IMG/VR virus record: IMGVR_UViG_3300023116_000451
Span: 1 to 20,470 of that record
Strand: one strand, 5' to 3'
DNA: 20,470 nucleotides
Source of the DNA: a virus
The position numbers and the translations under genes were made by a program. Shown here piece after piece: positions 1,809-17,013 of the stretch; position 1 is the first letter of the stretch, and every line of letters begins with the position of its first letter. Below the pieces are notes generated by a model. It saw only the letters and a list, made by a program, of their open reading frames with translations, did not search any database and was not told the origin of the DNA.

Positions 1809-2753
1809 ATGGCTATTAATCGCTCTAGTATTGCAAAAGAACTTCTTCCCGGTCTAAATGCTATTTTTGGCATAGAATACGGTGAAGTGGATAATGAACA
1901 TGAACCACTTTACGAAGTTGAACAGTCAGATCGTGCATTTGAAGAAGAAGTTCTATTCACCGGCTTCGGCACTGCACCTGTAAAGGGTGAAGGTGCTGCA
2001 GTTCAGTATGACGACGCACAGGAAGGATATACTGCTCGGTACACACACGAGACAGTTGCCCTTGCTTTCGCAGTCACTGAAGAAGCTATGGAAGATAACC
2101 TCTATGACACCTTTGCCAAGCTACGTGCACGTGGTCTAGCCCGTGCAATGGCAAATACCAAGCAGGTAAAAGCTGCAGACGTTTTCAATAACGGCTTCAG
2201 TGCTGCTTATCTTGGTGGTGACGGTGTTGCACTATTCTCAGCCGCACACCCAACTGTTGGTGATGGTAATCAGTCCAACACTCTAGGTGCTACCGATCTA
2301 TCAGAAGCTTCACTTGAGACTGCACTTATTACAATCTCAAAGACTAAAGATGATCGTGGCATTCTAATCGGTGCACAGGCCGAGTCACTACACGTTCCAT
2401 CTGATCTAGCATTTACTGCAGACCAGATTCTAAACAGCCAGATGACAACTGTTATTGGTGTAAACCCCAATGACACTTCCATCGGCGCAACCAACCAGAA
2501 CAAGATCAACTCAATCCGTAATCAGGGTCTTGTTCCCGGTGGTTTCTTTGTTAATCGTCGGTTCACTGACACAAACGCTTGGTACATTAAGACTGATGTT
2601 CCTAATGGTACAAAGATGTTTGTTCGTGCACCTCTTGCAACAAAGATGGAACCAGATTTTGACACTGGCAATCTCCGGTTCAAGGCACGTGAACGGTACA
2701 GCTTTGGCTGGTCCGATTGGCGTGGCTTCTACGGTGCTTCAGGTTCCTCCTAA
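1809..2753 (+). CDS. Major capsid protein
   Basis: This 314-residue protein has the size and motifs of an HK97-fold coat protein. Examples are the AVQYDDAQEGYTARYTHETV stretch at about residues 65-84, a helix with AVTEEAMEDNLYDTF that would match the spine region, and a C-terminal domain ending RERYSFGWSDWRGFYG. It follows scaffold-like and decoration-like genes and precedes a strong terminator, as expected for the most abundant virion protein. Codons here are more C- and G-ending than in the flanking genes, consistent with high expression. The ribosome site is AGAAGGGAG at 1790-1798. No prohead protease or delta domain is visible within the gene. It resembles coat proteins of the Mu-gpT-like type seen in marine phages, but the exact family is uncertain. 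Confidence 0.85.
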   Translation: MAINRSSIAKELLPGLNAIFGIEYGEVDNEHEPLYEVEQSDRAFEEEVLFTGFGTAPVKGEGAAVQYDDAQEGYTARYTHETVALAFAVTEEAMEDNLYDTFAKLRARGLARAMANTKQVKAADVFNNGFSAAYLGGDGVALFSAAHPTVGDGNQSNTLGATDLSEASLETALITISKTKDDRGILIGAQAESLHVPSDLAFTADQILNSQMTTVIGVNPNDTSIGATNQNKINSIRNQGLVPGGFFVNRRFTDTNAWYIKTDVPNGTKMFVRAPLATKMEPDFDTGNLRFKARERYSFGWSDWRGFYGASGSS

Positions 2754-2772
2754 GAATCTGTTGAACTAGACT

Positions 2773-2833
2773 AAGGCATAGGGGTGTAGAGAGAAGAAAT
2801 TCTTTTTACACTCCTTTGCCTTTTTTATTTTTT
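2773..2833 (+). terminator. Rho-independent terminator after the capsid gene
   Basis: AAGGCATAGGGGTGTA (2773-2788) pairs with TACACTCCTTTGCCTT (2807-2822), sixteen positions with one T-T mismatch and one G-U pair. The loop region can itself form a small AAGAA/TTCTT stem. A T-tract (TTTTTTATTTTTT, 2821-2833) follows at once. It lies just after the capsid stop, so it should end or reduce transcription from the head genes. Confidence 0.9.
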
Positions 2834-2840
2834 AATCTAG

Positions 2841-2849
2841 TGTTATAAT
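2841..2849 (+). promoter_or_regulatory. Extended -10 promoter-like site after the terminator
   Basis: TGTTATAAT matches the bacterial extended -10 consensus (TGnTATAAT) exactly. The bases 17 upstream are only a T-run, a weak -35, but extended -10 sites can work without one. The site is in the non-coding gap right after the capsid terminator and about 38 bases before the next gene, so it could restart host RNA polymerase for the neck and tail genes. Confidence 0.55.
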
Positions 2850-2886
2850 ACAACAAGTATTAATACTAATCCGAAAAGAGGCTAAA

Positions 2887-3192
2887 ATGACAACAACTCT
2901 TCGCGAAGGATATGTTGTAGGCAGCGGTGTAGTTCTAGATGTTACCTCAAGTGTAACAGTTTCCGATACACGCATTCGTTCTCTATTTGCTACTGGTGTA
3001 GGTACTTTCCTTATCACTGGCACTTCAACAGATGCATATGGAAACATTAAGGGTAATAATATTAAATTTACTCTAACAACTGCAAATGATGCTTCAGAAA
3101 TTTATCTTACTGATCTAGGAATGGATATGAACGGAACAGTAAAAGTTTCTGCACCTACATCTGCTGCTACGGTGGCTGTATTCTATGGCTAA
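2887..3192 (+). CDS. Small beta-rich virion-type protein, function unknown
   Basis: This 101-residue protein is rich in Thr, Val, Ser and Gly with alternating hydrophobic residues throughout (for example GYVVGSGVVLDVTSSVTV), suggesting a compact beta-sandwich. It has no Cys and no membrane segment. It is the first gene after the capsid terminator and promoter-like site, with an AAGAGG ribosome site, and its last eight bases overlap the start of the adaptor gene, so the two are probably co-translated. Its place between capsid and adaptor suggests a minor head or neck protein. I do not recognise a named family. Confidence 0.6.
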   Translation: MTTTLREGYVVGSGVVLDVTSSVTVSDTRIRSLFATGVGTFLITGTSTDAYGNIKGNNIKFTLTTANDASEIYLTDLGMDMNGTVKVSAPTSAATVAVFYG

Positions 3193-3841
3193 CTATACTT
3201 ATCTGGTCAACGAACTAATCGCTGCTACTGAAAATGATAGCACCGAGTTTCTTAACTTTATTCCAAATATGGTGAATAGAGCAGAAGAAAGACTTGTCAA
3301 AGACCTAGATGACTATGGTTTAGTTACCTATACTTCAGTAGCTGTATCAAGTGGTAATAATAAAATTACACTTCCTACAGGCACACGCATTGTTAAAAAC
3401 TTTAACATTGTAAGTAACAGTTCCAAGATTAATCTTCTTATGAGAACTGACGAATTTATTAACGATTATTGGCCTGTAAGTGCTTCAACATCAGAACCAC
3501 GTTACTATGGTCAACGTAACGGATCAACAGTAGTAGTTGCTCCTACACCAGCCTCTACCTATGCAGGAGAGGTTGTTTACATTTCCAGACCTACTACACT
3601 AACTTCAGCAACCAACACAAACTACTTTACAGATTTTTGTTATGATCTTCTGTTTAATGCTTGTATGGTTGAAGCTTCAATGTTTCAAAAAGATTATCAA
3701 ACTGCTGGACTATATCAACAGCAATACAATCAAGTTCTTGATCTACAGCGTAATCAAGCACGACGTACAAGAAGAGATGATATGCAAGCACCAGCAAGTC
3801 CTGCAGGTGCAGACGATAATCTTGTACCTAATTCTAATTAA
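3185..3841 (+). CDS. Head-tail adaptor protein (first copy of adaptor-type genes)
   Basis: This 218-residue protein opens with a helical segment (YLVNELIAATENDSTEFLNFIPNMVNRAEERLVKDLD written in part), then a beta stretch (ITLPTGTRIVKNFNI), a proline/tyrosine region (TSEPRYYG), and a C-terminal helical region with KDYQTAGLYQQQYNQVL. This helix-beta-helix plan with an 'AEERL..DLD' motif is typical of phage adaptor proteins that dock on the portal ring and connect it to the tail. It starts eight bases inside the previous gene. The C-terminal 25 residues (RRTRRDDMQAPASPAG) are likely disordered. The family is inferred by motif memory; confidence is moderate. Confidence 0.65.
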   Translation: MANYTYLVNELIAATENDSTEFLNFIPNMVNRAEERLVKDLDDYGLVTYTSVAVSSGNNKITLPTGTRIVKNFNIVSNSSKINLLMRTDEFINDYWPVSASTSEPRYYGQRNGSTVVVAPTPASTYAGEVVYISRPTTLTSATNTNYFTDFCYDLLFNACMVEASMFQKDYQTAGLYQQQYNQVLDLQRNQARRTRRDDMQAPASPAGADDNLVPNSN

Positions 3842-4500: not shown

Positions 4501-4782
4501 ATGGGTTTAAAAGTTACAGATTTTATGGGGGCTATTCCTGCTATTGGCGGGAGAATGGATAAAGAAGATCGTGGTTTTCTTGTTGGTTTGCTTCCCGGTG
4601 TTATGTATAAAGAATCTCAAAGAAAGAAAAGACGTACTCCTAGTCAACAAGTTGCACAAGCTTCTAACGTAGGACAGGCTCAAGCTTCTAATGTAGGAAA
4701 GCGTATGAAGAAGGGTGGTAAAGTTTCTTCTTCTAAAAGCAAAAAGAAGACTTATAAATGTTCACATAATAGGCTTTATTAA
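4501..4782 (+). CDS. Small basic protein with CSHNRLY tail (second copy)
   Basis: This 93-residue protein has a moderately hydrophobic N-terminal third ([16 protein letters not shown], then [13 protein letters not shown]), a tandem seven-residue-type repeat ([14 protein letters not shown]), and a Lys-rich tail ending YKCSHNRLY. The final 24 coding bases (4759-4782) match 4016-4039 at 22 of 24 positions, with both differences synonymous. The ribosome site is AGGAG at 4491-4495. The stop overlaps the next start (TAATG). Function is unknown; the hydrophobic first part could associate with membrane or with the neighbouring membrane protein. Confidence 0.7.
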
Positions 4783-4961
4783 TGCCTCTTAAAAAAGGTA
4801 AAAGTAAAAAAACTATCAGTGAAAACATTCGTAGAGAAATGAAAGCTGGTAAACCACAGAAACAAGCAGTAGCTATCGCACTTCAAAAAGCTGGTAGGAG
4901 AAAGGCAAATGGCCGTAAAACGTCGAACAACAAAGTCAAGAAAAACTACCGCAAAGCCTAA
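4782..4961 (+). CDS. 59-residue basic protein of the KQAVAIAL type
   Basis: The protein reads [20 protein letters not shown] at the start, then [19 protein letters not shown]. The 'G.PQKQA.AIAL..AG' pattern is frequent in tiny phage proteins, and in those I recall the protein ends soon after it. Here about 18 more residues continue across the start of the next gene, a 53-base out-of-frame overlap. The start is coupled to the previous stop (TAATG). It is basic, probably a helical hairpin, with no known role. The overlapping tail may exist only because no stop occurs earlier in this frame. Confidence 0.6.
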
Positions 4962-5127
4962 ATCAAAAGTCAATCAGGCTGGTAACTACACTAAGCCTAC
5001 AATGCGTAAAAGACTTTTTGAAAGTATTAAGGCTGGTGGTAAAGGCGGTAGACCGGGGCAATGGTCAGCACGTAAAGCACAAATGCTTGCAAAACAATAT
5101 AAAGCCAAAGGCGGAGGTTATAGATAA
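4909..5127 (+). CDS. Small basic protein with [10 protein letters not shown] motif
   Basis: This 72-residue, Lys/Arg-rich protein has a disordered basic N-terminus ([13 protein letters not shown]) and a compact C-terminal motif, [18 protein letters not shown], followed by a helix and the ending KAKGGGYR. This motif recurs in very small proteins of marine phages and, as I recall, of some large eukaryotic DNA viruses, as a domain of unknown function. The start at 4909 is supported by AGGAGAAAGG at 4892-4901, which lies inside the end of the previous gene. A nucleic-acid-binding role is plausible from charge alone. Confidence 0.7.
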
Positions 5128-5129
5128 TA

Positions 5130-5210
5130 ATGGAATGTAATTGTAAAATGTGTCCTGTACACACAGTAAAACGTATTATTGCAAAGATCAAGGCTCTTGT
5201 AGGAAAATAA
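5130..5210 (+). CDS. 26-residue Cys-rich cationic microprotein
   Basis: From ATG 5130 the frame reads MECNCKMCPVH followed by TVKRIIAKIKALVGK and a stop. Cys3, Cys5, Cys8 and His11 could bind a metal ion. The rest is a short cationic amphipathic helix. GGAGG at 5113-5117 is twelve bases upstream, and the frame fits exactly between the neighbouring genes (two bases after one stop, one base before the next start), as a real gene would in this tightly packed region. It could also be a chance open frame, so confidence is moderate. Confidence 0.5.
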   Translation: MECNCKMCPVHTVKRIIAKIKALVGK

Positions 5211-5211
5211 A

Positions 5212-5472
5212 GTGGCTTTGAAAAAACCACAACGTAGTCTTAAATCTTGGACTAAGCAGAAATGGCGTACTAAATCAGGTAAGCCATCTACGCAAGGTCC
5301 AAAGGCTACTGGTGAAAGATACTTACCAGAGAAAGCTATTAAACGTCTTAGTGCTAAAGAATATGCTGCTACAACAAAAGCTAAACGTAAAGCAACTAAG
5401 AAGGGTAAGCAAGTAGCTAAACAACCAAAGAAGATTGCTAAAAAAGTAAGACGATATAGAAGGGTTACATAA
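5212..5472 (+). CDS. Small basic protein, SLKSWTKQKWRT type
   Basis: This 86-residue protein starts at GTG 5212 (the frame has no better start, and it follows the previous stop by one base). It reads SLKSWTKQKWRTKSGKPSTQ, then RYLPEKAIKRLSAKEYAAT, and a Lys/Arg-rich tail with KRKATKKGKQVAKQPKK. The W-T-K-Q-K-W opening and the RYLP..A..L plan recur in small proteins of marine phages and apparently in some large DNA viruses of eukaryotes, without a known function. It is extremely basic, so nucleic-acid binding is likely. Its stop overlaps the next start (TAATG). Confidence 0.7.
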   Translation: MALKKPQRSLKSWTKQKWRTKSGKPSTQGPKATGERYLPEKAIKRLSAKEYAATTKAKRKATKKGKQVAKQPKKIAKKVRRYRRVT

Positions 5473-5768
5473 TGGCTGTACGTAAACGTAAAGGCAAAGG
5501 CATGAAAGGCATGAGCATTAAGAGTGGTGATAAGCGTCCCACTAAAGCTGGTGCAGGAATGACCAAGAAGGGTGTTGCTAAATATCGTAGACAGAATCCC
5601 GGTTCTAAGCTTAAAACAGCCGTAACTGAAAAGAAACCTTCTAAAGCACGTGCAGCACGACGTAAGTCATATTGTGCACGATCAGCAGGGCAAATGAAAA
5701 AGTTTCCTAAAGCTGCTAAAAATCCTAATAGCCGTTTGCGTCAAGCACGTAAGCGGTGGAGGTGTTAA
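5472..5768 (+). CDS. Small basic protein with CARSAGQMKKFPKAAK motif
   Basis: This 98-residue protein has a Lys-rich N-terminus, a central GAGMTKKGVAKYRRQNPGSK segment and a conserved end: RRKSYCARSAGQMKKFPKAA followed by NPNSRLRQARKRWRC. The family is widespread in phages and large DNA viruses as a domain of unknown function (I believe DUF6321). The two Cys residues, one in YCARS and one at the C-terminus, are typical of it. It is coupled at both ends by TAATG overlaps, so it is translated with its neighbours. A DNA-binding or virion-packaged role is a guess from charge and context. Confidence 0.75.
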   Translation: MAVRKRKGKGMKGMSIKSGDKRPTKAGAGMTKKGVAKYRRQNPGSKLKTAVTEKKPSKARAARRKSYCARSAGQMKKFPKAAKNPNSRLRQARKRWRC

Positions 5769-5872: not shown

Positions 5873-6219
5873 TGTGTAAGTTGAAAAAGTTTTTAAATAA
5901 ATTCTCAGAAGCATGGATTCAAGCTTTTGTATCTTGTTGTACTATGATGGTGCAGGGTGATTTTTTATCTTTATCTTTGAAACATGCTTTTGTTGCTTCT
6001 AAAACAGCGTCAATAACAGGAATAGCAACAAGTTTATTCTTAGTAAAGTTTAATAAAAATATGTCTCCTTTTATAGTAGCATGGATAGTTGGTTTATTTA
6101 CATCAATAAGTGATTATATTGTACATCCAACACACTTTGGTGACTTTTTTTATGAAGCATTAGCTACAGGTATTATGGCAGGATTTCTTGCTTATGCTTA
6201 TGAAAGGTTTAAAAAATAA
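5872..6219 (+). CDS. Small multi-pass membrane protein
   Basis: This 115-residue protein starts at GTG 5872, overlapping the previous TAG. Hydrophobic segments lie at about residues 41-58, 65-84 and 92-110, with a weaker, possibly interfacial stretch at 14-27. The C-terminus is basic (YERFKK). The gene is more AT-rich than its neighbours. With the membrane protein at 4043 it could form a holin/antiholin pair, or act during infection at the membrane, but there is no lysis enzyme nearby. The stop overlaps the next adaptor gene (TAATG). Function unknown. Confidence 0.65.
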   Translation: MCKLKKFLNKFSEAWIQAFVSCCTMMVQGDFLSLSLKHAFVASKTASITGIATSLFLVKFNKNMSPFIVAWIVGLFTSISDYIVHPTHFGDFFYEALATGIMAGFLAYAYERFKK

Positions 6220-6893
6220 TGACTACTTCAGGTACATATAACTTCTCAATGGATATTGACGAAGTTATTCAAGAAGCAATGGAGATGATTGGCGGTGAAC
6301 AGACACTAGGACATGATCCTAAATCTGCTCGACGTTCAATTAATCTATTGCTACAAGATTGGCAGAATCGTGGTGTACTGCTTTGGACTGCTAATACAAC
6401 TACAGTTTCTGTATCTACAAGTGTAACAGCTTATGCTCTAGCTTCTAGCACCGTAGACGTTCTTGAAGTTGTTCTTAATCGTGACGATACTGATCTTCAA
6501 TTAGAACGTATTACAATGGAAGAATATCTCAAGATTCCACGTAAAGGTCAGACAGGTCGTCCATCACAATATGCTGTACGGCGTGATAGAGATAATCCAA
6601 CAATGTATCTCTGGCCTATTCCAGAGAATACAACAGACCTTTTAAAAATTGAACAAGTGCGGTATACTCAAGATGTAAACAAATCTGCTGTACAGACTGC
6701 AGATATTTCTAGACGTTTTTATCCTTGCCTTACTGCAGGACTATCTTACTTTATGTCAATGAAACGTCCCGGTGTAGAAGGTGGGCGTATTCAGTTTCTT
6801 AAAGCTGAATATGAAGAACGTCTAGCACGTGCAATGGATGAAGATAAAGAAAGAGCAAGCTTACGTATAGTACCAAATTTAAATAGAGTTTAA
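6219..6893 (+). CDS. P22 gp4-like tail accessory/adaptor protein
   Basis: This 224-residue protein starts with a helical region (MDIDEVIQEAMEMIGGEQTL, then SARRSINLLLQDWQNRGVLLWT), followed by beta strands, the YLKIPRKGQTGRPSQYAV segment, 'PTMYLWPIPENTTDLLKIE', and a helical C-terminus with FLKAEYEERLARAMDEDKER. This order of motifs is characteristic of the gp4-like adaptors of short-tailed phages that join the portal to the tail. It is coupled to the upstream membrane protein. It is the second adaptor-type gene in the window, 2.4 kb from the first, which fits an adaptor plus tail-accessory factor neck. Confidence 0.75.
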   Translation: MTTSGTYNFSMDIDEVIQEAMEMIGGEQTLGHDPKSARRSINLLLQDWQNRGVLLWTANTTTVSVSTSVTAYALASSTVDVLEVVLNRDDTDLQLERITMEEYLKIPRKGQTGRPSQYAVRRDRDNPTMYLWPIPENTTDLLKIEQVRYTQDVNKSAVQTADISRRFYPCLTAGLSYFMSMKRPGVEGGRIQFLKAEYEERLARAMDEDKERASLRIVPNLNRV

Positions 6894-6898
6894 GAATT

Positions 6899-7177
6899 AT
6901 GGCAAGCACTAAAAGAGCATTAGCAATATGCGATACGTGCGGTTTTCGGTATCCTCACAGGGTACTAAAAATGAACAGCTACGGAATGCTAGTTTGCCCA
7001 ACAGACTACGATGGTGCTTATGACTTAAAGAACCATCCACAAAATAAAACGCCTGATGTAAGAGATAATCCAGCAATACGTAATCCACGTCCAGAACTTA
7101 ATGCTGAACGTCATCTAGATTGGGAAGCTGCTTTATCTCTTTGGGAAGAAACTGACAACTATTGGAATAGTATATAA
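6899..7177 (+). CDS. Small Cys-containing neck-region protein, zinc-ribbon-like
   Basis: This 92-residue protein begins with CDTCGFRY at residues 11-18 and has a second knuckle MLVCPTDYDG at 30-39, then a conserved-looking tail (NHPQNKTPDVRDNPAIRNPRPE) and an acidic end. The fold resembles a four-Cys zinc ribbon, but only Cys11, Cys14 and Cys33 are present; the fourth position is Asp36. Related proteins occur beside adaptor genes in many marine phages and I know no proven function. The stop overlaps the fibre start (TAATG), so it may be co-made with the fibre. Confidence 0.65.
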   Translation: MASTKRALAICDTCGFRYPHRVLKMNSYGMLVCPTDYDGAYDLKNHPQNKTPDVRDNPAIRNPRPELNAERHLDWEAALSLWEETDNYWNSI

Positions 7178-10100
7178 TGGCTACACTTACTGGAACAAAA
7201 ATTGCTAATACTTATAAACAACTTTTACAAGTTGGAAGTAGCAATACTGGATTAACTGGTTCAGTACAAACTGTACAAGATGGTCAGGGTAATAACTCAC
7301 CTTTACAACTTAGTCAAAGTGCAGTAAATATTGATGGAACATTTCAACTAAGTGGAGTAACTCTTACAGCTAATGCTTCAACGCTTAATGCAGTAGCAGA
7401 CCTAACAGGTGCTACAGGCATTGTAGCTGTAAGTGCAGGTAATGTATATGGTAGAACGATTACAGGCGGTACGGGTGTTTCGATTACTAATGGGGATGGT
7501 ACTGAAGGTAATCCTACTATTGCTCTTAATACTACTGGAGTTGTATCTGGTACATATGGTCCATTAACAACTCTTGAAATTAATGAAGTAGGACAGATTG
7601 TAAGTGCTACTGCAGTTAGTACAAGTGTTTCAGTTCCAACTATTCGTGCATCTGAATTTATTGGTGGTACGTTTAAAGGAACAACAGCAGACTTTAGTTC
7701 AGATACTTCAATTGGTGGAACTGCTGTTGTTGAAGGAGCCGCAACATTTAATTCAACAGTTAGTGTTTCAGGTGCACTTACTGGTTCTTCTGCAACATTT
7801 ACAGGTACAGTTTCAGCAGGAAATATTTCAGGTGCTAATGCAACATTTAGCGGAAATGTATCAGCAACTGAATATTATGGTGATGGTTCAAATCTAACTG
7901 GAATTGTAGCAGCTTCAGCAACTTTTGCTGCATCAGCAGGATTTGCAGCTTCAGCAACAAATGCTTCATTTGCTCTTTCAGCTACTAATGCTAACTTTGC
8001 AGCTAGTGCTTCTTTTGCATCTAGTGCTTCATATGCTGCAAGTGCAGGAGAAGCTTCTTTTGCTGTGTCTGCTTCAAGTGCAGCATTTGCTACAAGTGCA
8101 GATAGCGCAACCTTTGCAGTATCTGCTGCCAATGCAACAACTGCTTATAATGTAAGCGGTGGCGTAGCAGACATTTCAGGACTAACTGCTGTTAGTGCAA
8201 GTATTTCAGATTTAAGAGCATTTCAAATTGGTGCTACATCTGTAAGTATTGGATACTTAAATGTAAACGATATTACTGCAATTACAATTTCAGCAACTGA
8301 TCTTAAATCTTCTACACTTAGCTTTACATCTGTTAGTGTATCTTCATTGCGGGTATATCGACTAGCTGTTGAAACAACTCTTTCAGCAACATATGGTACT
8401 TTTACAGGGGATGTTTCAGCCGTTTCATTTTATGGTGATGGTTCAAATCTAACAGGTATTCTTGTTAGTGTTCCAACATCTGTACCATCTTATACAGTTA
8501 ATCAGCTATCAGTTGTTAGTGCAGCTAGTTTTCCTGATGATGCTACATTAAATTTTGGAACAGGAAATGATTTACAAATAGTTCATAATGGTAGTAATTC
8601 TGTAATTAAAGAAACAGGAACTGGTAGTTTATTTGTTCAAAGTAATGAAATTAAATTAACAAATACTGGTTCTTTTTCAATGCTTACTTTAGCAGATGGT
8701 CAAGATGCAGATTTTCCATACGGTATTCAAGTAAGTGGTACAGTTAGTGCTACATCATTTGTAGGACCAACGATTACTTCAATTAATTCTGTAATTTCAA
8801 ATGTATCTGCACTTACAAGTGTAAATGCAGCAGCTATTACAAGTATTAATACTATCTTAGGTGATGGAAGTAACTTTGCAACTTCAGCAGAACTAGCTGC
8901 TACATCTGCTGCATTAGCAACAAGCATTGCTACTGCAAATACACGAATTACTTCAGTAAGTGATTATGCTGTAGCACTTTCAGCTACTCTTGCTACAAGT
9001 ATTGGTAACAGCAATACAAATATTACGACAAATACTAATGCTATTACAAGTATTAACACAGTTATTGCAGGTGTATCGGCTTTAACATCAGTTAATGCAG
9101 CAGCTATTACATCTATTAATACAGTTGTTGATAATCTTGATTTTGCAACTAGTGCTGAACTAGCTACTGTATCAGCAGCACTTGCAACAAGTATTTCTAA
9201 CAGTAATACAAACATTACAACAAATGCTAATGCTATTACAAGCATTAATACAGTTATTAATAACTTAGATTTTGCAACAAGTGCTGAATTAGCTGCTACA
9301 TCTGCTGCATTAGCAACAAGTATTTCAAACCATCTACCATTATCTGGTGGTACACTTACAGGCACAGTAAGCGGTACTGATGCTTCATTTAGTGGTAATG
9401 TATCAGCCGTTTCATTTTATGGTGATGGTTCAAATCTAACCAATCTACCAACTGCTCCTACATCTGTATCAGCATATACAGTAAATCAGCTAACAATAGT
9501 TAGTGCTGCTACACTAGCAGGAACAGATTTAGAAACTAGAATTAATACAGTATCAGTAAATACTTCTGTAAATGCAGCAGCAATTACTTCAATCAATGCA
9601 ATCATTGAAGGTGACGTATCTGCTGATAGTGGTACATTTAATACACTAACAGTTATTACATCTGCATCAGTTGGCGGTACACTTAATGTTGGTGGAAATG
9701 TCAGTATTGGTGGTGATCTAACGGCTGGCGATTCCACATTTGACGCACTGAAAGTAACGACAACTTTTGGTACAATCACAGGAGCAAGCACGGGGTATAT
9801 AGACGACGCTTCTGGAAATATGCGTGTCGTTTCTTTAGGCCCAAATACCTCCCTCAATGGAACGATCACATTTTCATCCCGACGCTCTGATGCCTCAAAT
9901 GCAACTGACCTTTTGACGCTTGGCGGTAGCACAGGCAACGCCACCTTCACAGGTGATGTTAATTTATCAGCAGCTAGTGGCACTATTGATCTTGCAAATG
10001 CTGGTAATCGAGGCATTTATTACGATGGCACGTTAGTTAATGTGTTCTCTACGGTTGCTGGAGGAGATGTCCAATTAGATGCAACGGATCAAGTACGCTT

Positions 10101-13100
10101 TAAAACTGCCTCTACTGAACGTATGCGTATCGATAGCAGCGGTAACTTGCTGGTGGGGAGTACAAATACTGATGGCTTTGATGGCACAAGTGGCTTAAAG
10201 GTTGCTAGCAGCACTGCTGGTTTTCTTTTAGAAAGAACAGGCACAAGAAGTTGGCTGCAATACATTGATAGTTCTGGTGACTGGCGTCTTTATGACTCCA
10301 CAGATAATGCAGACCGTATGGTGGTCGACAGCAGCGGTAATGTCGGTATTGGTACTACGTCACCCGCAGTAAAACTTCATGTTTCAAGCGGTGCTTCGAA
10401 CGAAGTTGCTCGTTTTGAAGGCACTAATACTCCTTACATATCTATCTACGACACTGGTGTTCGCCAATCATATTGGATTTCCTCTACGAGTATTATTTTA
10501 CGTGCAGAAAACTCAAAAGATTTGGACATAGGCACGCTTAATCCAAATGCGTTTCGTTTCACAACTAATAATACCGAACGTATGCGTATCGACAGCAGCG
10601 GCAATGTTGGTATTGGGACCAGTTCACCTTCCGCAAAATTAGACGTTAATGGCACCCTATCGGCTAGTGGCCTTGCTTCGGTTGGCGACTTAACTTTAAC
10701 GGCGGGCAATCCAGAAATACTCACGGACGACAACAGCACTTTTCTATATATCAGCGGGTCCACCACAAAAGACTTGGGCGGCAATATCATTCTGGTTCCA
10801 GACAGCCATCCATCGGTTCCAAACGATATTATTTTCCGGTCTGATGCAACTAACGTCATGCGGTGGGATGACAGCGCGTCTACATTTGATCTTTTGGGCA
10901 ACGCTTTAAGTGCTGGCAACATTATCTCCACATCTTCCGACACTACTGATCAGGTAATTATTGAAAATACCGATGATACTTCGACAAGTGCACCTGATAT
11001 TGTTCTCTATAAGAATAGTGCTTCCCCAGCCTCTTCTGACAATCTCGGTTTGATTCAATTCAGAGGCAAGGATAGTGCTGCCGCCGACGCAAATTATGCG
11101 TCTATCCTTTCTCAAATTGACACCCCAACAAATGGAGCAGAAGTTGGTCGTTTGGCTTTCTTCGTTATGTCTGGTGGAGTTGAAACGCAGACGCTTACGT
11201 TGGATGACGGCAACGCCACCTTCGCGGGTAATGTTGGTATTGGGGGTGCTGCAAGTGCGTCATACGCATTGCAGATTTCAGAAGATAGTGGCTCTGGTGC
11301 AGTTCCCGGTATTTTGCTCAATAACACCAATTCAACCCCTTACGATGATTGGGCAATTTATACACACGCAAATACATTGTATTTCTATAATACAACGGAT
11401 GCGGTAAACGCATTATCTTTTGATGCGAATTACGCAGCCACCTTCGTGGGTGATGGCACGTTCTCACGCTCTGCTGTCGGCGGCACGGTTGGCCTTACAA
11501 TTCAAAACTCCGCAACGTCTGGTGCATCTGCTGCCCGGCTCCACCTTGACGTAAGCGATAGTTCGACGGCTGATCCTTACGTCTGGTGGTCTACCGATAG
11601 CACGAACGTGTATGCCGGTATTGACAATGACGATAGCGATAAATTCAAAATTGGTAACTCGTTCTCTACGCCGTTCGTTGCATTCGAGAAAACCACGAAC
11701 AACGCCACCTTCGCTGGCACCCTCTCCGCTGGTGCTGGTACGTTCACAGGACTGGATGTTGATGGTAATGTAGAGCAACATACAGCTACTCCAACCATTA
11801 ATTACCGCTTAACGGGCACAGGCAATGTGAACGTATCTCAGGTGGTCACAACCCTATCAAGCAACGCAGCATCTTGGGATATACGGACGATGCCGTCAGG
11901 AGGCGGTGGACCGTTTGTTAGCCTATACGCAGCTTATAGTGAGGTTAAACTACGCACGGAAAACACTGACGCCCTTACCATAGACAGCAGCCAAAATGTC
12001 GGTATTGGAAAAAGTCCAAGCTATGCACGATTAGAAGTAAGTGATGGGGCAGGAACAACTCCACCAGAAACACAATCTGCTAGTACTGTAGCATTATTTC
12101 AACATAATGCAACAAGCACAGATGACGCACACATTTCTATAATTGCTGGAACATCAGGACAATCAAGAATTTACTTTGGTGATGCTAACGATGAAAACGC
12201 TGGTCAAATTGAATATGATCACGGATCAAATTACATGTCCTTCAGAACTAATAGTTCTGGTGAGGACATGCGTATCACCAGCAGCGGCAGTGTCGGTATT
12301 GGAGAGTCAAGTCCTTCATATAAGCTACATGTTAGAGGTGATGCTGCTATACAAAGTGGTAATGTAAGTTTAGTTGTAGGAGCCAACGGCGGCAGTACAG
12401 CTTTAAGTGACACTACTCAAAAAATAGCTAGAATAGGTACACCACATTATACCAATTCAGAAGAACCTATAGCTGTTCTTATGAATGTTTCTGATCCATC
12501 AGAAAATATATTGTCTATTGGCGGTAATACAGTTTCGATGAATGCTTCTACACGCATAGGATTTTTTACTGCTGGTAACACAACTACTCTTTCTGGTTCT
12601 GAAAGGATGCGTATCGACAGCACCGGAAATGTCGGTATTGGTACTACTTCATTCAGTTCTGGTTTAACAGTTTCTAAAGAAGGTTCTAATACCACAGACG
12701 GTGCTTATTTTTTAGTCGATTCTGGTAATGCTAGTCTTGGTGGTAATGCTGTTGGAGCAGGATTTAAATATGCTGCGGCAGTAGGTAATGCCTTTATCCC
12801 GTTTAAAATTACTGCTAACGGTACGACCATTAACCAAATATCTTCCACTGGTGCTATGTATGTTGGTAATGGATCAACTGCTTATGGTTCTCATGATCCT
12901 TATTATACATTCACGCATGATACTAATACAGGAATGGATTGGGCTGCTGCTGACACATTAACATTTAAAACTGGTGGCACTGAACGTGTGCGTATCGACA
13001 GCAGCGGTAACGTTGGTATTGGGACTACGTCACCTGCAAAACAACTTCACATAACCAAAGCGGCTAAAGCAGATATTGGTACACTAACAGACGGTGCAAC

Positions 13101-13380
13101 CATCACTCCTGACTTTGATGCTAATCAGAACTTCTCTGTAACTCTTGGCGGCAACCGTACACTTGCTAATCCAAGTAATATTGATGCAGGTCAGACAGGC
13201 AGTATCTTTGTTGTGCAGGATGGCACAGGATCAAGAACATTGTCTTTTGGTTCTTATTGGAAATTTGCTGGTGGTACTGCACCTACACTATCTACTGCCG
13301 CAGGATCAGTTGACAGAATTGATTATATCGTATATACTACTACAGCAATTCATGCTGTTGCAACTCTTAACGTAAGCTAA
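7177..13380 (+). CDS. Giant modular tail fibre protein
   Basis: A 2067-residue tail fibre, very long for a short-tailed phage. The N-terminal part (about 1-220, TKIANTYKQLLQVGSSNTGL) is probably the virion-attachment end. Next come three YGDGSNLTG modules (residues 234-242, 419-427, 748-756, the last as YGDGSNLTN), an Ala-rich segment with Phe every 6 or 9 residues (250-313), and three copies of FATSAELAATSAALATSI (starting 567, 656, 699). From about 980 to 1950 there are seven ERMRIDSSGNVGIG-like modules, and the final domain (about 1965-2067) ends IHAVATLNVS. A PLSGGTLTG motif follows the third copy. Residues about 849-1610 use GC-rich codons unlike either flank, suggesting an acquired block. 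Host binding is the expected role; no endosialidase or depolymerase motif was seen. Confidence 0.85.
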   Translation: MATLTGTKIANTYKQLLQVGSSNTGLTGSVQTVQDGQGNNSPLQLSQSAVNIDGTFQLSGVTLTANASTLNAVADLTGATGIVAVSAGNVYGRTITGGTGVSITNGDGTEGNPTIALNTTGVVSGTYGPLTTLEINEVGQIVSATAVSTSVSVPTIRASEFIGGTFKGTTADFSSDTSIGGTAVVEGAATFNSTVSVSGALTGSSATFTGTVSAGNISGANATFSGNVSATEYYGDGSNLTGIVAASATFAASAGFAASATNASFALSATNANFAASASFASSASYAASAGEASFAVSASSAAFATSADSATFAVSAANATTAYNVSGGVADISGLTAVSASISDLRAFQIGATSVSIGYLNVNDITAITISATDLKSSTLSFTSVSVSSLRVYRLAVETTLSATYGTFTGDVSAVSFYGDGSNLTGILVSVPTSVPSYTVNQLSVVSAASFPDDATLNFGTGNDLQIVHNGSNSVIKETGTGSLFVQSNEIKLTNTGSFSMLTLADGQDADFPYGIQVSGTVSATSFVGPTITSINSVISNVSALTSVNAAAITSINTILGDGSNFATSAELAATSAALATSIATANTRITSVSDYAVALSATLATSIGNSNTNITTNTNAITSINTVIAGVSALTSVNAAAITSINTVVDNLDFATSAELATVSAALATSISNSNTNITTNANAITSINTVINNLDFATSAELAATSAALATSISNHLPLSGGTLTGTVSGTDASFSGNVSAVSFYGDGSNLTNLPTAPTSVSAYTVNQLTIVSAATLAGTDLETRINTVSVNTSVNAAAITSINAIIEGDVSADSGTFNTLTVITSASVGGTLNVGGNVSIGGDLTAGDSTFDALKVTTTFGTITGASTGYIDDASGNMRVVSLGPNTSLNGTITFSSRRSDASNATDLLTLGGSTGNATFTGDVNLSAASGTIDLANAGNRGIYYDGTLVNVFSTVAGGDVQLDATDQVRFKTASTERMRIDSSGNLLVGSTNTDGFDGTSGLKVASSTAGFLLERTGTRSWLQYIDSSGDWRLYDSTDNADRMVVDSSGNVGIGTTSPAVKLHVSSGASNEVARFEGTNTPYISIYDTGVRQSYWISSTSIILRAENSKDLDIGTLNPNAFRFTTNNTERMRIDSSGNVGIGTSSPSAKLDVNGTLSASGLASVGDLTLTAGNPEILTDDNSTFLYISGSTTKDLGGNIILVPDSHPSVPNDIIFRSDATNVMRWDDSASTFDLLGNALSAGNIISTSSDTTDQVIIENTDDTSTSAPDIVLYKNSASPASSDNLGLIQFRGKDSAAADANYASILSQIDTPTNGAEVGRLAFFVMSGGVETQTLTLDDGNATFAGNVGIGGAASASYALQISEDSGSGAVPGILLNNTNSTPYDDWAIYTHANTLYFYNTTDAVNALSFDANYAATFVGDGTFSRSAVGGTVGLTIQNSATSGASAARLHLDVSDSSTADPYVWWSTDSTNVYAGIDNDDSDKFKIGNSFSTPFVAFEKTTNNATFAGTLSAGAGTFTGLDVDGNVEQHTATPTINYRLTGTGNVNVSQVVTTLSSNAASWDIRTMPSGGGGPFVSLYAAYSEVKLRTENTDALTIDSSQNVGIGKSPSYARLEVSDGAGTTPPETQSASTVALFQHNATSTDDAHISIIAGTSGQSRIYFGDANDENAGQIEYDHGSNYMSFRTNSSGEDMRITSSGSVGIGESSPSYKLHVRGDAAIQSGNVSLVVGANGGSTALSDTTQKIARIGTPHYTNSEEPIAVLMNVSDPSENILSIGGNTVSMNASTRIGFFTAGNTTTLSGSERMRIDSTGNVGIGTTSFSSGLTVSKEGSNTTDGAYFLVDSGNASLGGNAVGAGFKYAAAVGNAFIPFKITANGTTINQISSTGAMYVGNGSTAYGSHDPYYTFTHDTNTGMDWAAADTLTFKTGGTERVRIDSSGNVGIGTTSPAKQLHITKAAKADIGTLTDGATITPDFDANQNFSVTLGGNRTLANPSNIDAGQTGSIFVVQDGTGSRTLSFGSYWKFAGGTAPTLSTAAGSVDRIDYIVYTTTAIHAVATLNVS
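7876..7898 (+). repeat. Fibre module repeat, copy 1 (YGDGSNLT)
   Basis: A 23-base direct repeat encoding Y-G-D-G-S-N-L-T that is identical at 8431-8453 and 9418-9440. All copies are in the same reading frame of the fibre gene. Confidence 0.85.
7915..8151 (+). repeat. Ala/Ser-rich Phe-periodic coding repeat
   Basis: Residues 247-325 of the fibre repeat an F-A-x-S-A unit. Aromatic residues fall at 250, 256, 265, 274, 280, 286, 295, 304 and 313, that is, at steps of 6 or 9. This suggests a regular trimeric shaft such as a beta-helix or coiled segment. Confidence 0.7.
8416..8453 (+). repeat. Fibre module repeat, copy 2 (38 bases shared with copy 3)
   Basis: Encodes S-A-V-S-F-Y-G-D-G-S-N-L-T. 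All 38 bases are identical to 9403-9440, and the last 23 bases also match copy 1. The identity at DNA level could support homologous recombination. Confidence 0.85.
8875..8928 (+). repeat. FATSAELAATSAALATSI repeat, copy 1
   Basis: Eighteen-residue helical repeat in the fibre. Near-copies follow at 9142-9195 (with ATV for AAT) and 9271-9324, embedded in ITSIN-type repeats; the DNA copies differ mostly at silent sites. Confidence 0.75.
9142..9195 (+). repeat. FATSAELAATSAALATSI repeat, copy 2
   Basis: Second copy, encoding FATSAELATVSAALATSI, followed by a SNSNTNITTN segment that also occurs near copy 1. The following ITSINTVI block leads into copy 3. Confidence 0.75.
9271..9324 (+). repeat. 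FATSAELAATSAALATSI repeat, copy 3
   Basis: Third copy, identical in protein sequence to copy 1. It is followed by the fibre motif LPLSGGTLTG, a common end of helical fibre sections. Confidence 0.75.
9403..9440 (+). repeat. Fibre module repeat, copy 3
   Basis: Identical over 38 bases to 8416-8453. It precedes PTAPTSVSAYTVNQL, which echoes PTSVPSYTVNQL after copy 2, so the whole module is duplicated. Confidence 0.85.
10117..13030 (+). repeat. Seven DNA-conserved ERMRIDSSGNVGIG linker repeats in the fibre
   Basis: Copies of about 45 bases start near 10117, 10312, 10576, 11974, 12262, 12601 and 12982, spaced unevenly (65 to about 465 residues). Their shared core CGTATCGACAGCAGCGG is GC-rich even where the flanking coding DNA is AT-rich (12200-13000). 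Between them lie unrelated segments, so they look like fixed joints between exchangeable modules. Confidence 0.75.
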
Positions 13381-13397: not shown

Positions 13398-13721
13398 ATG
13401 GCAATTACTTGGTCTATTGTTCAGCTTGATTATGCTCTATCACTAGATGGTCAAACTGATGTAGTAAACAATTCTCATTGGCAGTGCATTGATTCTGATG
13501 ATCAAGGCAATCAGGCTAGAGTTTATGGATCAGTAGCAATCCCTACTGACGATCTTTCAAACTTTACACCTTATGCTGACATTACTGAAGCACAGGCACT
13601 ACAGTGGACAAAAGATGCTCTAGGTGATGAAGAAGTAGCTTCTACTGAGGCTAATGTAACTTCACAACTTAATTTAATTGAAAATCCTACTGAAGGTAGT
13701 GGTAAGCCTTGGGCGGTTTAA
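13398..13721 (+). CDS. Small fibre-associated protein, function unknown
   Basis: This 107-residue acidic protein starts MAITWSIVQLDYALSLDGQT and contains NSHWQCIDSDDQGNQARVYG, then YADITEAQALQWTKDALGDE. The order of an ITW opening, a HW strand, an SYG-like strand and a W-containing helix recurs in small proteins encoded directly after tail fibres in marine phages and cyanophages; I recall them as a domain of unknown function. It begins 17 bases after the fibre stop, with AAGGAT as ribosome site, in a leader identical over 16 bases to the one at 14828. It may assist fibre folding or be a minor tail protein. Confidence 0.7.
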   Translation: MAITWSIVQLDYALSLDGQTDVVNNSHWQCIDSDDQGNQARVYGSVAIPTDDLSNFTPYADITEAQALQWTKDALGDEEVASTEANVTSQLNLIENPTEGSGKPWAV

Positions 13722-13750: not shown

Positions 13751-13972
13751 ATGGGAAAAAATGAAAAAACCCCAATTATTGTTGATGACGTAGAATATCA
13801 ATACGAAGACATGACTGAAGAACAACAGCTATATGTAAATCATATTGCTGATCTAGATCGTAAACTTTCTTCTGCTAGATTTAATGTTGATCAGCTTGAA
13901 GTTGGTAAAAGTGCTTTTGTAAAAATGTTGACTGATTCTTTAAATAAAGAAACTATGACTGAAACGGAATAA
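13751..13972 (+). CDS. Small acidic helical protein, function unknown
   Basis: This 73-residue protein opens IIVDDVEYQYEDMTEEQQLY and continues with a helix predicted to form a coiled coil (HIADLDRKLSSARFNVDQLE, then a second helical part). A short beta hairpin followed by one or two long helices is also seen in small tail-region proteins of cyanophages and marine phages (I recall DUF6447-like). AAGGAG at 13738-13743 is an excellent ribosome site. It lies between fibre-related genes, so a fibre chaperone or minor structural role is a fair guess. Confidence 0.65.
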   Translation: MGKNEKTPIIVDDVEYQYEDMTEEQQLYVNHIADLDRKLSSARFNVDQLEVGKSAFVKMLTDSLNKETMTETE

Positions 13973-13973
13973 C

Positions 13974-14675
13974 ATGGTATTTAATAATAATCTCCTTCTA
14001 GGTGCAGCAGGAGCAGCAACGCCATTTTCGATCAGCAATACGGCTAACGGTACGCCGTCAACTAGCACCGGCACTACACATACGTTTAGCTCTCTAGCGT
14101 TTGGTGATGAGGATGACACCCGAATAATTATTGTCGCAACGAGCCATACGACGAATTTCAATAATGGTCGATACAGCAGCGTCACCATCGGTGGTGTTAC
14201 TGCCACTCAAATCGTCACGGCACTAGCAAACTCCGCCGACGACGGGCTGTCTGGTATTTTTGCAGCCCAGGTTCCAACGGGAACAAGCGGCGATGTCGTC
14301 ATAACATTGACAGCTGGCATAGGTGGCAATCGTGGTGTTTCTTGCAGTGTCTTTGCCATGTACGGCAAGGATGATGTTTCGGCACACGCCACCAGTAATG
14401 ATTCAGCGACATCGGGTGTTTTGTCTACACTGAGCCTCAACGTCCCTGCCGGTGGCGCTGTGATCGGCACGACAGGCCACATTGCAACCACAAGTGTGAC
14501 CTGCACATGGGTCGGGGCAACCAGAATAAACAATCAGCAGCCGGGTACTCGTCAAAAACTGAGCGAAGCTTTTTCCGCCGACTTATCAGCAGAAACGCCC
14601 CGAACTGTCACAGCTACTTGGTCTGGTGCTGCTGGCGTCACCAGCGGCGCAGCAGCCTCGTATGGGCCAAATTAA
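13974..14675 (+). CDS. GC-rich putative receptor-binding or tail protein
   Basis: This 233-residue protein is rich in Thr, Gly, Ala, Ser and Val with regular beta strands. Examples are TRIIIVATSHTTNFNN, YSSVTIGGVTATQIV, then IFAAQVPTGTSGDVVITLTA and a VFAMYGKDDV segment. The plan resembles beta-sandwich tail proteins of alphaproteobacterial phages and prophages in which a strand-rich domain is thought to meet the cell surface. The gene has strongly different composition: 35 of 60 bases are G or C at 14221-14280, against 19 of 60 at 15001-15060. ATG 13974 follows the previous stop by one base with only a weak ribosome site. It is probably an acquired accessory gene. Confidence 0.65.
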   Translation: MVFNNNLLLGAAGAATPFSISNTANGTPSTSTGTTHTFSSLAFGDEDDTRIIIVATSHTTNFNNGRYSSVTIGGVTATQIVTALANSADDGLSGIFAAQVPTGTSGDVVITLTAGIGGNRGVSCSVFAMYGKDDVSAHATSNDSATSGVLSTLSLNVPAGGAVIGTTGHIATTSVTCTWVGATRINNQQPGTRQKLSEAFSADLSAETPRTVTATWSGAAGVTSGAAASYGPN

Positions 14676-14695: not shown

Positions 14696-14839
14696 ATGTG
14701 GAAATACTCAAACAGAACCATCCTTGAAAACAAATCTTGGACCGATGACAACGGGATTACACACCTGAGAAACTGGCACATATGTAGTACGGAAGATAAG
14801 GCGTTGCACCAGATACAGCAAGATAATAAGGATAAATAA
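14696..14839 (+). pseudogene. Truncated first part of a fibre-assembly-like gene
   Basis: The 47-residue frame reads MWKYSNRTILENKSWTDDNG at the start. It matches the first 35 residues of the next gene at 18 positions, including WTD, NGI and NWHI. It then loses similarity and stops. The last codons and stop (AAG GAT AAA TAA) are the same bases as the leader of the next gene, so the stop belongs to the neighbour's ribosome-site region. Composition is intermediate to GC-rich. I read it as the leftover front of a second version of the next gene. A real short gene cannot be excluded. Confidence 0.6.
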
Positions 14840-14840
14840 A

Positions 14841-15401
14841 ATGTGGACTTATAATGGAAAACAAATTAAAGAAGGAAAAGCTTGGACCGATAATAATGGT
14901 ATTCAGCATCCTGCAAATTGGCATATTTGGACGGAACAGGAAAAACAAGCTGTTGGACTTGTTTGGATCACTTTAGATACACCACCTGATAGCAGACTAT
15001 ATACTTGGTCATATAATGCTGATGGTACTATTACATCTACTGCTAAATCTATTGAAGATGTTTATGAAGTAGATGAAGATGGTAATGCTCTATTAGATGG
15101 TGATGGAAATCAAATTATTACTTTTGGTGTTAAAACTAAACTAAAAGAAGAAGTTAAGGCCCAACAGGCTGGGCTGCTAGCGCAGACCGATTGGGCAATT
15201 ATTCGGCGGGCCGACACGAACATCGACGTACCCACCAATATACAAAAATGGCGTGACGAAATTAGACTGGCTGCTGCGGCGATGGAGGATCAGATCACAC
15301 AGGCTGCTGACATTGATGCCATAGCTGCATTGTTTATTACCTACGATGAAGACGGAAACCGGTCTGGTACTCTCTATGAATGGCCTGAGTTAGTAAGGTA
15401 A
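14841..15401 (+). CDS. Fibre-assembly-like protein, apparently chimeric
   Basis: This 186-residue protein has an N-terminal domain (1 to about 105) with WTDNNGIQHPANWHIW, YTWSYNADGT and a Gly/Asp-rich linker, then a helical C-terminal domain starting near residue 106 (QQAGLLAQTDWAIIRRADT, RLAAAAMEDQITQAADIDAI). The C-terminal pattern 'LAQTDW..IR.AD....P..I..WR..IR' is typical of phage tail-fibre assembly proteins. Base composition jumps at about 15159: 19 of 60 G or C at 15001-15060 against 34 of 60 at 15181-15240. The switch falls at the domain boundary. The stop overlaps the next start (TAATG). A chaperone for one of the fibres is the likely role. Confidence 0.65.
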   Translation: MWTYNGKQIKEGKAWTDNNGIQHPANWHIWTEQEKQAVGLVWITLDTPPDSRLYTWSYNADGTITSTAKSIEDVYEVDEDGNALLDGDGNQIITFGVKTKLKEEVKAQQAGLLAQTDWAIIRRADTNIDVPTNIQKWRDEIRLAAAAMEDQITQAADIDAIAALFITYDEDGNRSGTLYEWPELVR

Positions 15402-15601
15402 TGTTTTATTATATCTCAGTAATTATAGTAACACTGCTGCCTACAGGTAAGCCTATTAAAGAACATGCTGTAACAGGACCATTTCCTGATATAGTAAACT
15501 GCATGAACTATGCAAATGTTATTAATCAAGTAACAATAGAAGCAAAAACAAAAATCTTACGATCAGAGTGTAAAGAAAAAGTTAAAAGAAAGGCAGTATA
15601 A
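15401..15601 (+). CDS. Small protein with hydrophobic N-terminus
   Basis: This 66-residue protein begins MFYYISVIIVTLLPTGKPIK, a short hydrophobic stretch that could be a signal or anchor segment, and has two Cys residues (in NCMN and SECKEK) that could form a disulphide if exported. The C-terminus is basic. It is joined to both neighbours by TAATG overlaps, which supports it as a real gene. No family recognised. It may be secreted or membrane-anchored, or simply a short gene in the tail operon. Confidence 0.55.
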   Translation: MFYYISVIIVTLLPTGKPIKEHAVTGPFPDIVNCMNYANVINQVTIEAKTKILRSECKEKVKRKAV

Positions 15602-17013
15602 TGGCAAGTACATACACAGATAGACTAGGTTTAGAAAAACAAGGTGATGGAGAGAATCCAAATAGCTGGGGTACTATTCTAAACACTAATGTTATTGATC
15701 TAATAGATGACGCTATTGCTGGCTATGAAATTGTTTCTGTTAGCGGAACAGGAATTACACTTACAGATAATAACGGTTCTTCAGATCAATCACGTAATGC
15801 TGCTTTAGAGTTTGCTGGTACACTTACAGCTAATGTAACTATTACTATTCCATCAGAAGAAAAAACTTACTTTGTTAGAGAAAATACTACAGGTTCTTTT
15901 GCTGTTCAAATGAAAACAGCAGGAGGTTCTGCGATTACTCTAACACAACAAAGTAATGTTTTTGTAGCTTGTGATGGTACAGATATTTACTCTGTAGAAT
16001 CACCTACATCTGTTAGTGCTTTTACAGTTAATGATTTAACAGCTAATGTTTTAACAGCTACCAGTATTACAACTTCTATTTTAGCTGCTACAAATGTTTC
16101 TACTTCTATCCTTACTGCTATAAATGTTTCTACTACTTCTTTTGCTGCAACAAGTATTAGTACTTCTACTGTTAGTGCGTCCTCTATTACAGTTACTGGA
16201 AATGTTTCTGCTACAGAATATTACGGAGATGGAAGTAATCTAACAGGTTTAGGTAATCTTCCAAGAGGATATTTATCTGGTCTTACATTATCAAATGGTA
16301 CAGACGCAGATCACGATATTGATATTGCGGTAGGTGAAGCTAGAGACTCTGGCAATACTACTGATTTAAGTTTATCATCTATAATGACAAAACAAATAGA
16401 TGCTACTTGGTCGTCGGGTACTGGTGCTGGTGGGATGGCTTCTGGAGTTACTTTATCAGCAGATACTTGGTATCACGTTTATCTTGTTGAACTAGATGCT
16501 GGAGGCACTGATGCTGGATTTGATACATCTACTACTGCAGCTAATCTTGTAGCTACTTCTGGCATTGCCTCTGCCTATAGGCGTATTGGTTCTGTTCTTA
16601 CAGATAGCAGCAGTAACATTCTTGGCTTTACCCAATTTGAAGATGAATTTATTTGGGACACTCAAGTAACAAATGTAGACGAAACTGCACTTGGAACTAG
16701 CCGTGTATTGCAAACAGTTACTACACCATTAGGATTTGAAACTAAGGCTATACTTGGTATTATTGCAAGAGTTATAAATTCTAATTATAATATTCAATTT
16801 ACTGTAACGCATCCAAATGTAACAGATGCTGAACCTCTACCACCTATTGCTAATAATGCTGGTGAGAACACTGGTGGTGAGCAAGGTACATGGGCTGCTG
16901 GCACACACATAGTCAGAACTAATACATCAAGTCAAGTAGCATTTAGACAAAGCTTTAATGGCACAGACTATATTAATACTAATGGTTACTATGATCCTAG
17001 AGGTAGAGGATAA
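15601..17013 (+). CDS. Second tail fibre/tail protein
   Basis: This 470-residue protein opens YTDRLGLEKQGDGENPNSWG and continues with a beta-rich domain ending near residue 130. This type of N-terminus is common in tail proteins of marine phages. Residues 150-198 form a Ser/Thr-rich shaft with a period of about ten (ILAATNVSTS, ILTAINVSTT). Residues 200-216 (GNVSATEYYGDGSNLTG) are identical to residues 226-242 of the giant fibre, and 135-146 resemble its PTSV..YTVNQL segment. The C-terminal half (about 220-470) is a separate beta-rich domain with IDVDE-free, Gly-rich loops and a final NTNGYYDPRGRG. It may be a side fibre or the fibre's attachment partner. Confidence 0.75.
   Translation: MASTYTDRLGLEKQGDGENPNSWGTILNTNVIDLIDDAIAGYEIVSVSGTGITLTDNNGSSDQSRNAALEFAGTLTANVTITIPSEEKTYFVRENTTGSFAVQMKTAGGSAITLTQQSNVFVACDGTDIYSVESPTSVSAFTVNDLTANVLTATSITTSILAATNVSTSILTAINVSTTSFAATSISTSTVSASSITVTGNVSATEYYGDGSNLTGLGNLPRGYLSGLTLSNGTDADHDIDIAVGEARDSGNTTDLSLSSIMTKQIDATWSSGTGAGGMASGVTLSADTWYHVYLVELDAGGTDAGFDTSTTAANLVATSGIASAYRRIGSVLTDSSSNILGFTQFEDEFIWDTQVTNVDETALGTSRVLQTVTTPLGFETKAILGIIARVINSNYNIQFTVTHPNVTDAEPLPPIANNAGENTGGEQGTWAAGTHIVRTNTSSQVAFRQSFNGTDYINTNGYYDPRGRG

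Follow-up and report, generated by a model that had tools for sequence, protein, structure and literature searches.

Organization of the locus

The window analysed here, i.e., the whole stretch of 20,470 bases that constitutes the record of an uncultured and probably marine phage, contains at positions 14841–15401 (plus strand) an open reading frame for a protein of 186 residues which, judged from a profile match and from gene order, most likely encodes a tail-fibre assembly chaperone. The features of the locus are listed below, with homologous loci in other genomes and contigs designated by L numbers.

13968–14011, plus strand: constant start of the fibre gene (MVFNNNLLLGAAG), where the fibre cassette is joined on the left; 87–95% DNA identity in at least nine loci with unlike fibre bodies
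13974–14675, plus strand: exchanged GC-rich fibre-like gene (233 residues) from an L013-like source, its first ~40 nt being resident; 84% to L013, 95% to L002 at the 5' end
14696–14803, plus strand: dead N-terminal piece of a chaperone gene that came along with the fibre cassette; 102/108 to L013
14806–14826, plus strand: fibre–chaperone linker (GCACCAGATACAGCAAGATAA), a leftover of a DUF7483 fibre gene (its 3' end) at which the fibre cassette is joined on the right; sole match in the window, site of the switch from L013 to L002
14841–15401, plus strand: chimeric tail-fibre assembly chaperone-like gene (186 residues); open reading frame with a weak PHROG 4912 match, directly after the fibre-like gene
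14841–15158, plus strand: resident AT-rich front (residues 1–106, GC3 0.13); 298/318 to L002, tree support 99/95
15113–15158, plus strand: left junction zone; identity to L002 falls at about residue 92, composition shifts after codon 105
15159–15370, plus strand: foreign back half (GC3 about 0.5); low identity to L002, C-half clade 98/98, AU p 0.002
15371–15401, plus strand: return to resident sequence (residues ~178–186 and stop); L122/L001 0.89, downstream 183/200 to L002

The protein matches PHROG 4912 (‘tail fiber assembly’) weakly (E 0.0021 over 45 residues), a family that also matches 25 of 34 aligned relatives at E ≤ 0.001 (best 1.2e-6), and its gene adjoins an upstream fibre-like gene having the same 5' end as the fibre genes of the relatives. 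None of the 34 relatives matches any Pfam model at E ≤ 0.01, including those of tail-assembly chaperones such as Caudo_TAP and Phage_tail_APC. A profile search against the PDB yielded nothing credible (best E 0.62), and Foldseek against the PDB retrieved no structure at E ≤ 0.001 and, on a second look, only middling helical matches. Ten matches in BFVD at E ≤ 0.001 carry uninformative names, and the next one (E 0.0016) is named phage tail assembly chaperone-like. Seven records of annotated phages match the chaperone, and a search of bacterial genomes gave three pattern matches and no relative. The homologues in Roseobacter phages CRP-406 (L010, 4995–5537) and CRP-811 are annotated as ‘N-acetylmuramidase/lysin’, which looks like a misannotation.

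Proteins of the Tfa/gp38 type, known from phages Mu, lambda and T4, are encoded by a small gene straight after the fibre gene, and Tfa of Mu is a tail-fibre assembly protein with a solved structure. The gene in the window is likewise small, lies straight after a fibre-like gene and exhibits the weak match to PHROG 4912; it differs in that none of 34 relatives has a Pfam match and in that its own product yielded no PDB fold match at E ≤ 0.001.

Several other observations were made in the window. The Pfam model SU10_adaptor is matched by both 3185–3841 (E 2.6e-23) and 6219–6893 (E 3e-10), and BLASTP of one against the other detects no credible similarity. A DUF7936 gene (E 1.3e-27) is located at 13398–13721, just ahead of the variable fibre locus. 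The gene for 2067 residues at 7177–13380 has a GC content of 0.42–0.51 per 300-nt window in its middle (9600–12150) and mostly 0.30–0.44 at its ends, the middle possibly being another exchanged stretch. Beside the first variable fibre gene lies a second one, a fibre-like gene for 470 residues at 15601–17013, of which the first ~130 residues resemble the 296-residue gene that L002 has in the corresponding position (4773–5663) and the remainder differs.

Two halves of the chaperone gene with separate histories

A first reading of the locus from its sequence only had described a sharp change of composition at about position 15159, which our analysis confirms. GC content rises from 0.333 (14841–15158) to 0.510 (15159–15401) and GC3 from 0.132 to 0.494 (Fisher p 8e-8), the strongest single GC3 break lying after codon 105 (position 15155), a break that none of 5000 shuffles reached. 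Among 102 distinct full-length homologues, for which the C-minus-N difference in GC3 has a mean of −0.01 (sd 0.08), the gene in the window exhibits the largest difference (+0.38), the next in size being L118 (−0.26). Genes measured on both sides of the locus have GC3 values of 0.13–0.19; values of 0.46 and 0.52 are found for the gene just upstream of the chaperone (13974–14675) and for the fragment at 14696–14839, respectively. The homologue search covered the best 80 loci, so that the sample of the family leans to close relatives; full-length copies (at least 131, of which 102 are distinct) were used, to the exclusion of six short pieces.

The resident form of the locus is represented by two viral contigs, L001 and L002, which share 94% identity with each other in the front and 94.5% in the back. 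When compared with L002 at the DNA level, the window is 94% identical in the front (298/318), 59% in the back (15159–15401; 151/255), and 92% in the next 200 nt (15402–15601; 183/200), and a sharp step at the junction is present in both GC3 and identity to L002. Consistently, the tree of the front halves unites the window with L001 and L002 (support 99/95), and the tree of the back halves places it, without these two, in a clade of ten rows (98/98) together with L021, L022, L024, L026, L036, L040, L046, L056 and L058; trees were calculated for 88 of the 102 rows (<95% identity) and then, giving the support values cited, for 30 rows picked after the 88-row trees had been seen. A C-half tree constrained to unite the window with L001 and L002 is worse by 34 lnL and is rejected (AU p 0.002), and an N-half tree in which the members of the back clade are kept together is likewise rejected (p 6e-44), the groups compared in these AU tests having been picked in part once the 88-row trees were known.

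Hence, based on the different relatives and the incompatible trees of its halves, a resident AT-rich front has been joined to a foreign GC-rich back, as the sequence-only reading had proposed when suggesting separate searches and trees for each half: their closest relatives differ, and a common tree is rejected. The change in composition thus stands up, and the gene at 14841–15401 is to be regarded as a true chimera. That reading had also suggested looking for the same junction in other genomes, and here the outcome was negative, with the exact junction peptide being found in no other viral contig searched.

Codons 178–186 (15371–15401) match L122 and L001 best (0.89) and are thus resident-like again, so that the foreign piece ends at ~15370. 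At the other end, codons 92–105 are unlike L002 and yet AT-rich, for which reason they may represent a third piece or an older exchange. A close donor of the C-half was not found among the homologues compared, where the best protein identity of this half is 71–75%. Its GC3 of 0.49 falls between the kinds encountered in the C-half clade, i.e., 0.77–0.80 for L018, L020 and L022, and 0.30 for L021.

A hairpin (GCCCA, six nucleotides, TGGGC) had been noted on the junction and is indeed present at 15159–15174, although no significance can be attached to it: a stretch of 243 nt is expected to hold 0.38 GC-rich stems (with a probability of 0.27 for one or more), and among the 102 homologues it can be formed in the window only. 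Being at chance level and unique to the window, the hairpin is ruled out as a recombination site.

Fibre cassette, dead fragment and linker

In L001 and L002, the gene upstream of the chaperone is a DUF7483 fibre gene (in L002 also matching Laminin_G_3) that starts with MVFNNNLLLGAAG and ends with GAAPATAR followed by the stop codon. The window retains the first ~40 nt of an L002-type fibre gene (95% identity to L002 over the first 41 nt) and also, at 14806–14826, its end linker. The GC-rich gene for 233 residues (13974–14675) shares 84% protein identity with L013, and the fragment at 14696–14803 is identical to L013 2440–2547 in 102 of 108 positions (92% in protein); identity then switches from L013 to L002 within the linker. 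The fibre-like protein has no match among annotated phages, and its fold model (pLDDT 38) is too poor to use.

In L013, the fragment is interrupted by an in-frame stop, and a full-length chaperone gene lies behind it (2580–3143); the C-half of this gene shares 57% protein identity with that of the window. No viral contig beyond L013 was found to carry the fragment. The presence of the same broken fragment along with a complete chaperone in L013 indicates that the fragment came with the fibre-like gene and constitutes an inherited scar, and the low similarity of the L013 C-half indicates that it did not come with the C-half. Since fibre and fragment are L013-like and the C-half is from elsewhere, at least two replacements have occurred. 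A role of the fragment as a functional small gene is unlikely, considering the in-frame stop in L013 and that the copy in the window runs through the linker in another frame.

The linker (GCACCAG..ACAGCAAGATAA) matches the window once, with zero matches expected. In all 25 contigs of the viral_contigs set that carry its exact form (GCACCAGCNACAGCAAGATAA), it is the 3' end of a fibre gene ahead of a chaperone, which starts 9–15 nt after the linker and has several unlike fronts. Moreover, 64 of the 88 upstream open reading frames found for chaperone homologues end in xAR or TGR, and DUF7483 (PF24299) was detected in 62 of the 74 that were scanned (plus strand, non-redundant rows, window excluded), ending at the chaperone border. 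DUF7483 was detected in neither of the two fibre candidates scanned in the window (7177–13377 and 13974–14672), and the chaperone may act on the product of the new fibre-like gene or on another fibre, or may be idle. In 59 rows, the fibre tip (last 70 residues) is weakly coupled to chaperone residues 48–94 (partial r 0.18; 2/1000 permutations), and no coupling signal was detected for residues 1–47 or for the C-terminal part.

Position of the cut and reassortment in the family

The AF2 model of the chaperone (pLDDT 93) comprises a mixed/β N-terminal part and a helical C-terminal part, with the changeover at residue 96/97. With identity to L002 dropping at about residue 92 and composition changing at 105, the cut brackets the structural border without lying exactly on it; the sequence-only reading, which had put the change exactly at the domain border, was thus right as to the vicinity and not as to the coincidence. 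Residues 105–118 form the densest conserved block of the family (9 of 14 columns are invariant or nearly invariant), and the return point falls within another dense conserved block, residues 174–184.

The signal is likewise seen in the family at large. In the analysis of all 88 rows (<95% identity), coupling across the cut is weakest at residue 105, and with the window and eight outlying rows removed (79 rows) the minimum is at 117 and nearly flat from 111 to 126. The two halves have a best match in common in just 19 of the 88 rows, as opposed to 38–57 (mean 48.6) for 200 random column splits of the same size. For example, L136 shares the C-half and not the front with L001, and L069 has a front like that of L024 and a back like that of L103. 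Single-pair breakpoints were obtained for 75 non-independent pairs, of which 14 are left once relatives are removed; these are spread over residues 32–171, and given this variation the claim is limited to the coupling minimum. Taken together, the few shared best matches and the weak coupling in the middle of the gene identify the gene in the window as one case of a family-wide habit of swapping halves. Its relatives trade the same halves repeatedly, and the window thus represents a clear but broadly expected instance of phage gene mosaicism.

As a separate observation, L021 (4680–5252) is also a mosaic, in which the front and the early C-half are L002-like and ‘RDEIRLAAAAMEDQITQA’ resembles the window and L018.

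Origin of the chimera

The history that we consider quite probable is as follows. A two-part tail-fibre assembly chaperone, from a family that normally sits behind a DUF7483 fibre gene, would have had codons ~92–106 to ~178 of its gene, and thus its 3' half, exchanged for the corresponding section of a distantly related homologue, with the AT-rich front and the last codons remaining resident. In another event, a GC-rich fibre-like gene from a phage similar to L013 would have taken the place of the adjacent fibre gene, the incoming cassette bringing along the dead N-terminal chaperone fragment and having its right end in the linker at the fibre–chaperone border. Conserved coding blocks harbour both ends of the foreign C-half, and the shared linker harbours the right end of the cassette, an arrangement that fits exchange through short conserved stretches. 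Probably, diverged co-infecting phages recombined via such blocks, the joints being the linker towards the fibre and, within the chaperone gene, a pair of conserved coding blocks. The resulting hybrid chaperone would presumably be functional.

The sequence-only reading had assembled the pieces differently, regarding the fragment at 14696–14803 and the back part at 15159–15401 as one incoming GC-rich chaperone gene split by the resident AT-rich front. The two pieces do have GC3 values near 0.5 and occur in the right order; however, in L013 the fragment (102/108) is already a broken partial copy with a complete chaperone after it, the C-half of L013 is only 57% like that of the window when compared with 84% for the fibre and 92% for the fragment (protein), and the C-half of the window groups with other lineages. 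This interruption model is thus largely refuted and retains little probability. Somewhat less improbable, albeit still unlikely, is an artefact in which the assembler fused two co-occurring phage variants at a conserved block. The record is indeed one metagenome contig, the switch does lie inside a conserved block, and the exact junction is seen in no other viral contig; however, because the sequence is resident again at 15371–15601 (with 183/200 to L002 for 15402–15601), such an artefact requires a double switch within ~250 nt, and discordant halves recur family-wide in other contigs. That no exchange occurred at all, and that the back half of a single gene owes its composition to drift or to selection for other codons, appears hardly credible. 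GC-rich C-halves of equal length do occur among the homologues, so that the protein evidently tolerates such codons, but the trees of the halves disagree at the protein level and not merely in codons, and the identity shared with L002 drops from 94 to 59% before rising again.

Relation to known systems and implications

Replacement of the chaperone 3' half together with a separate fibre replacement can be compared with three published systems. Modules of fibre and chaperone are common to Alteromonas phages A5 and V22 (PMC10579305), where, as in the window, a marine fibre gene and its downstream chaperone moved among lineages within a host-recognition module. Whole modules are concerned there, whereas in the window the cut is inside the chaperone, exchange of the fibre was a separate event and a Pfam family is lacking for the proteins. 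Metaviromic islands of marine phages, for which tail fibre (12) and putative tail fibre assembly (4) genes are tabulated (PMC3909814), likewise consist of variable host-recognition genes between constant flanks, a feature also evident when the window is compared with L001, L002 and L013; for these islands under-recruitment was measured, and for the window breakpoints and relatives are resolved at the level of single bases. Finally, relaxed homologous recombination by Rad52-like phage recombinases has been shown experimentally in temperate phages of E. coli (PMC3945230), with small gene fragments being exchanged between diverged phages via short conserved stretches, as we infer for the window; the exchange in the latter is deduced from the sequence of what is itself a fragment.

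The literature search revealed mosaic fibre/chaperone modules and, as judged by titles and abstracts, no paper on half-exchange inside the chaperone family linked to DUF7483; neither was literature found that names both ‘DUF7483’ and ‘phage’. Sharing of fibre/chaperone modules, variable host-recognition islands and relaxed recombination are known, and the fresh element is the half-wise reassortment in the DUF7483-linked family.

The present locus offers a view, base by base, of how a host-recognition module is rebuilt, the joints being a conserved linker and conserved coding blocks. Fibre, chaperone and even chaperone halves move separately, and the trace left by an earlier exchange is handed on along with the fibre gene. 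For DUF7483, a domain without a name, a likely chaperone partner is gained. One might speculate further, although we regard this as doubtful, that the chaperone consists of two independently exchangeable modules in a locus arranged for swapping at fixed joints, namely the constant fibre start, the constant 21-bp linker and the near-invariant block in the middle of the gene, and that hybrids can adapt quickly to new fibres. If so, lineages would reassort the fibre body, the chaperone front and the chaperone back.
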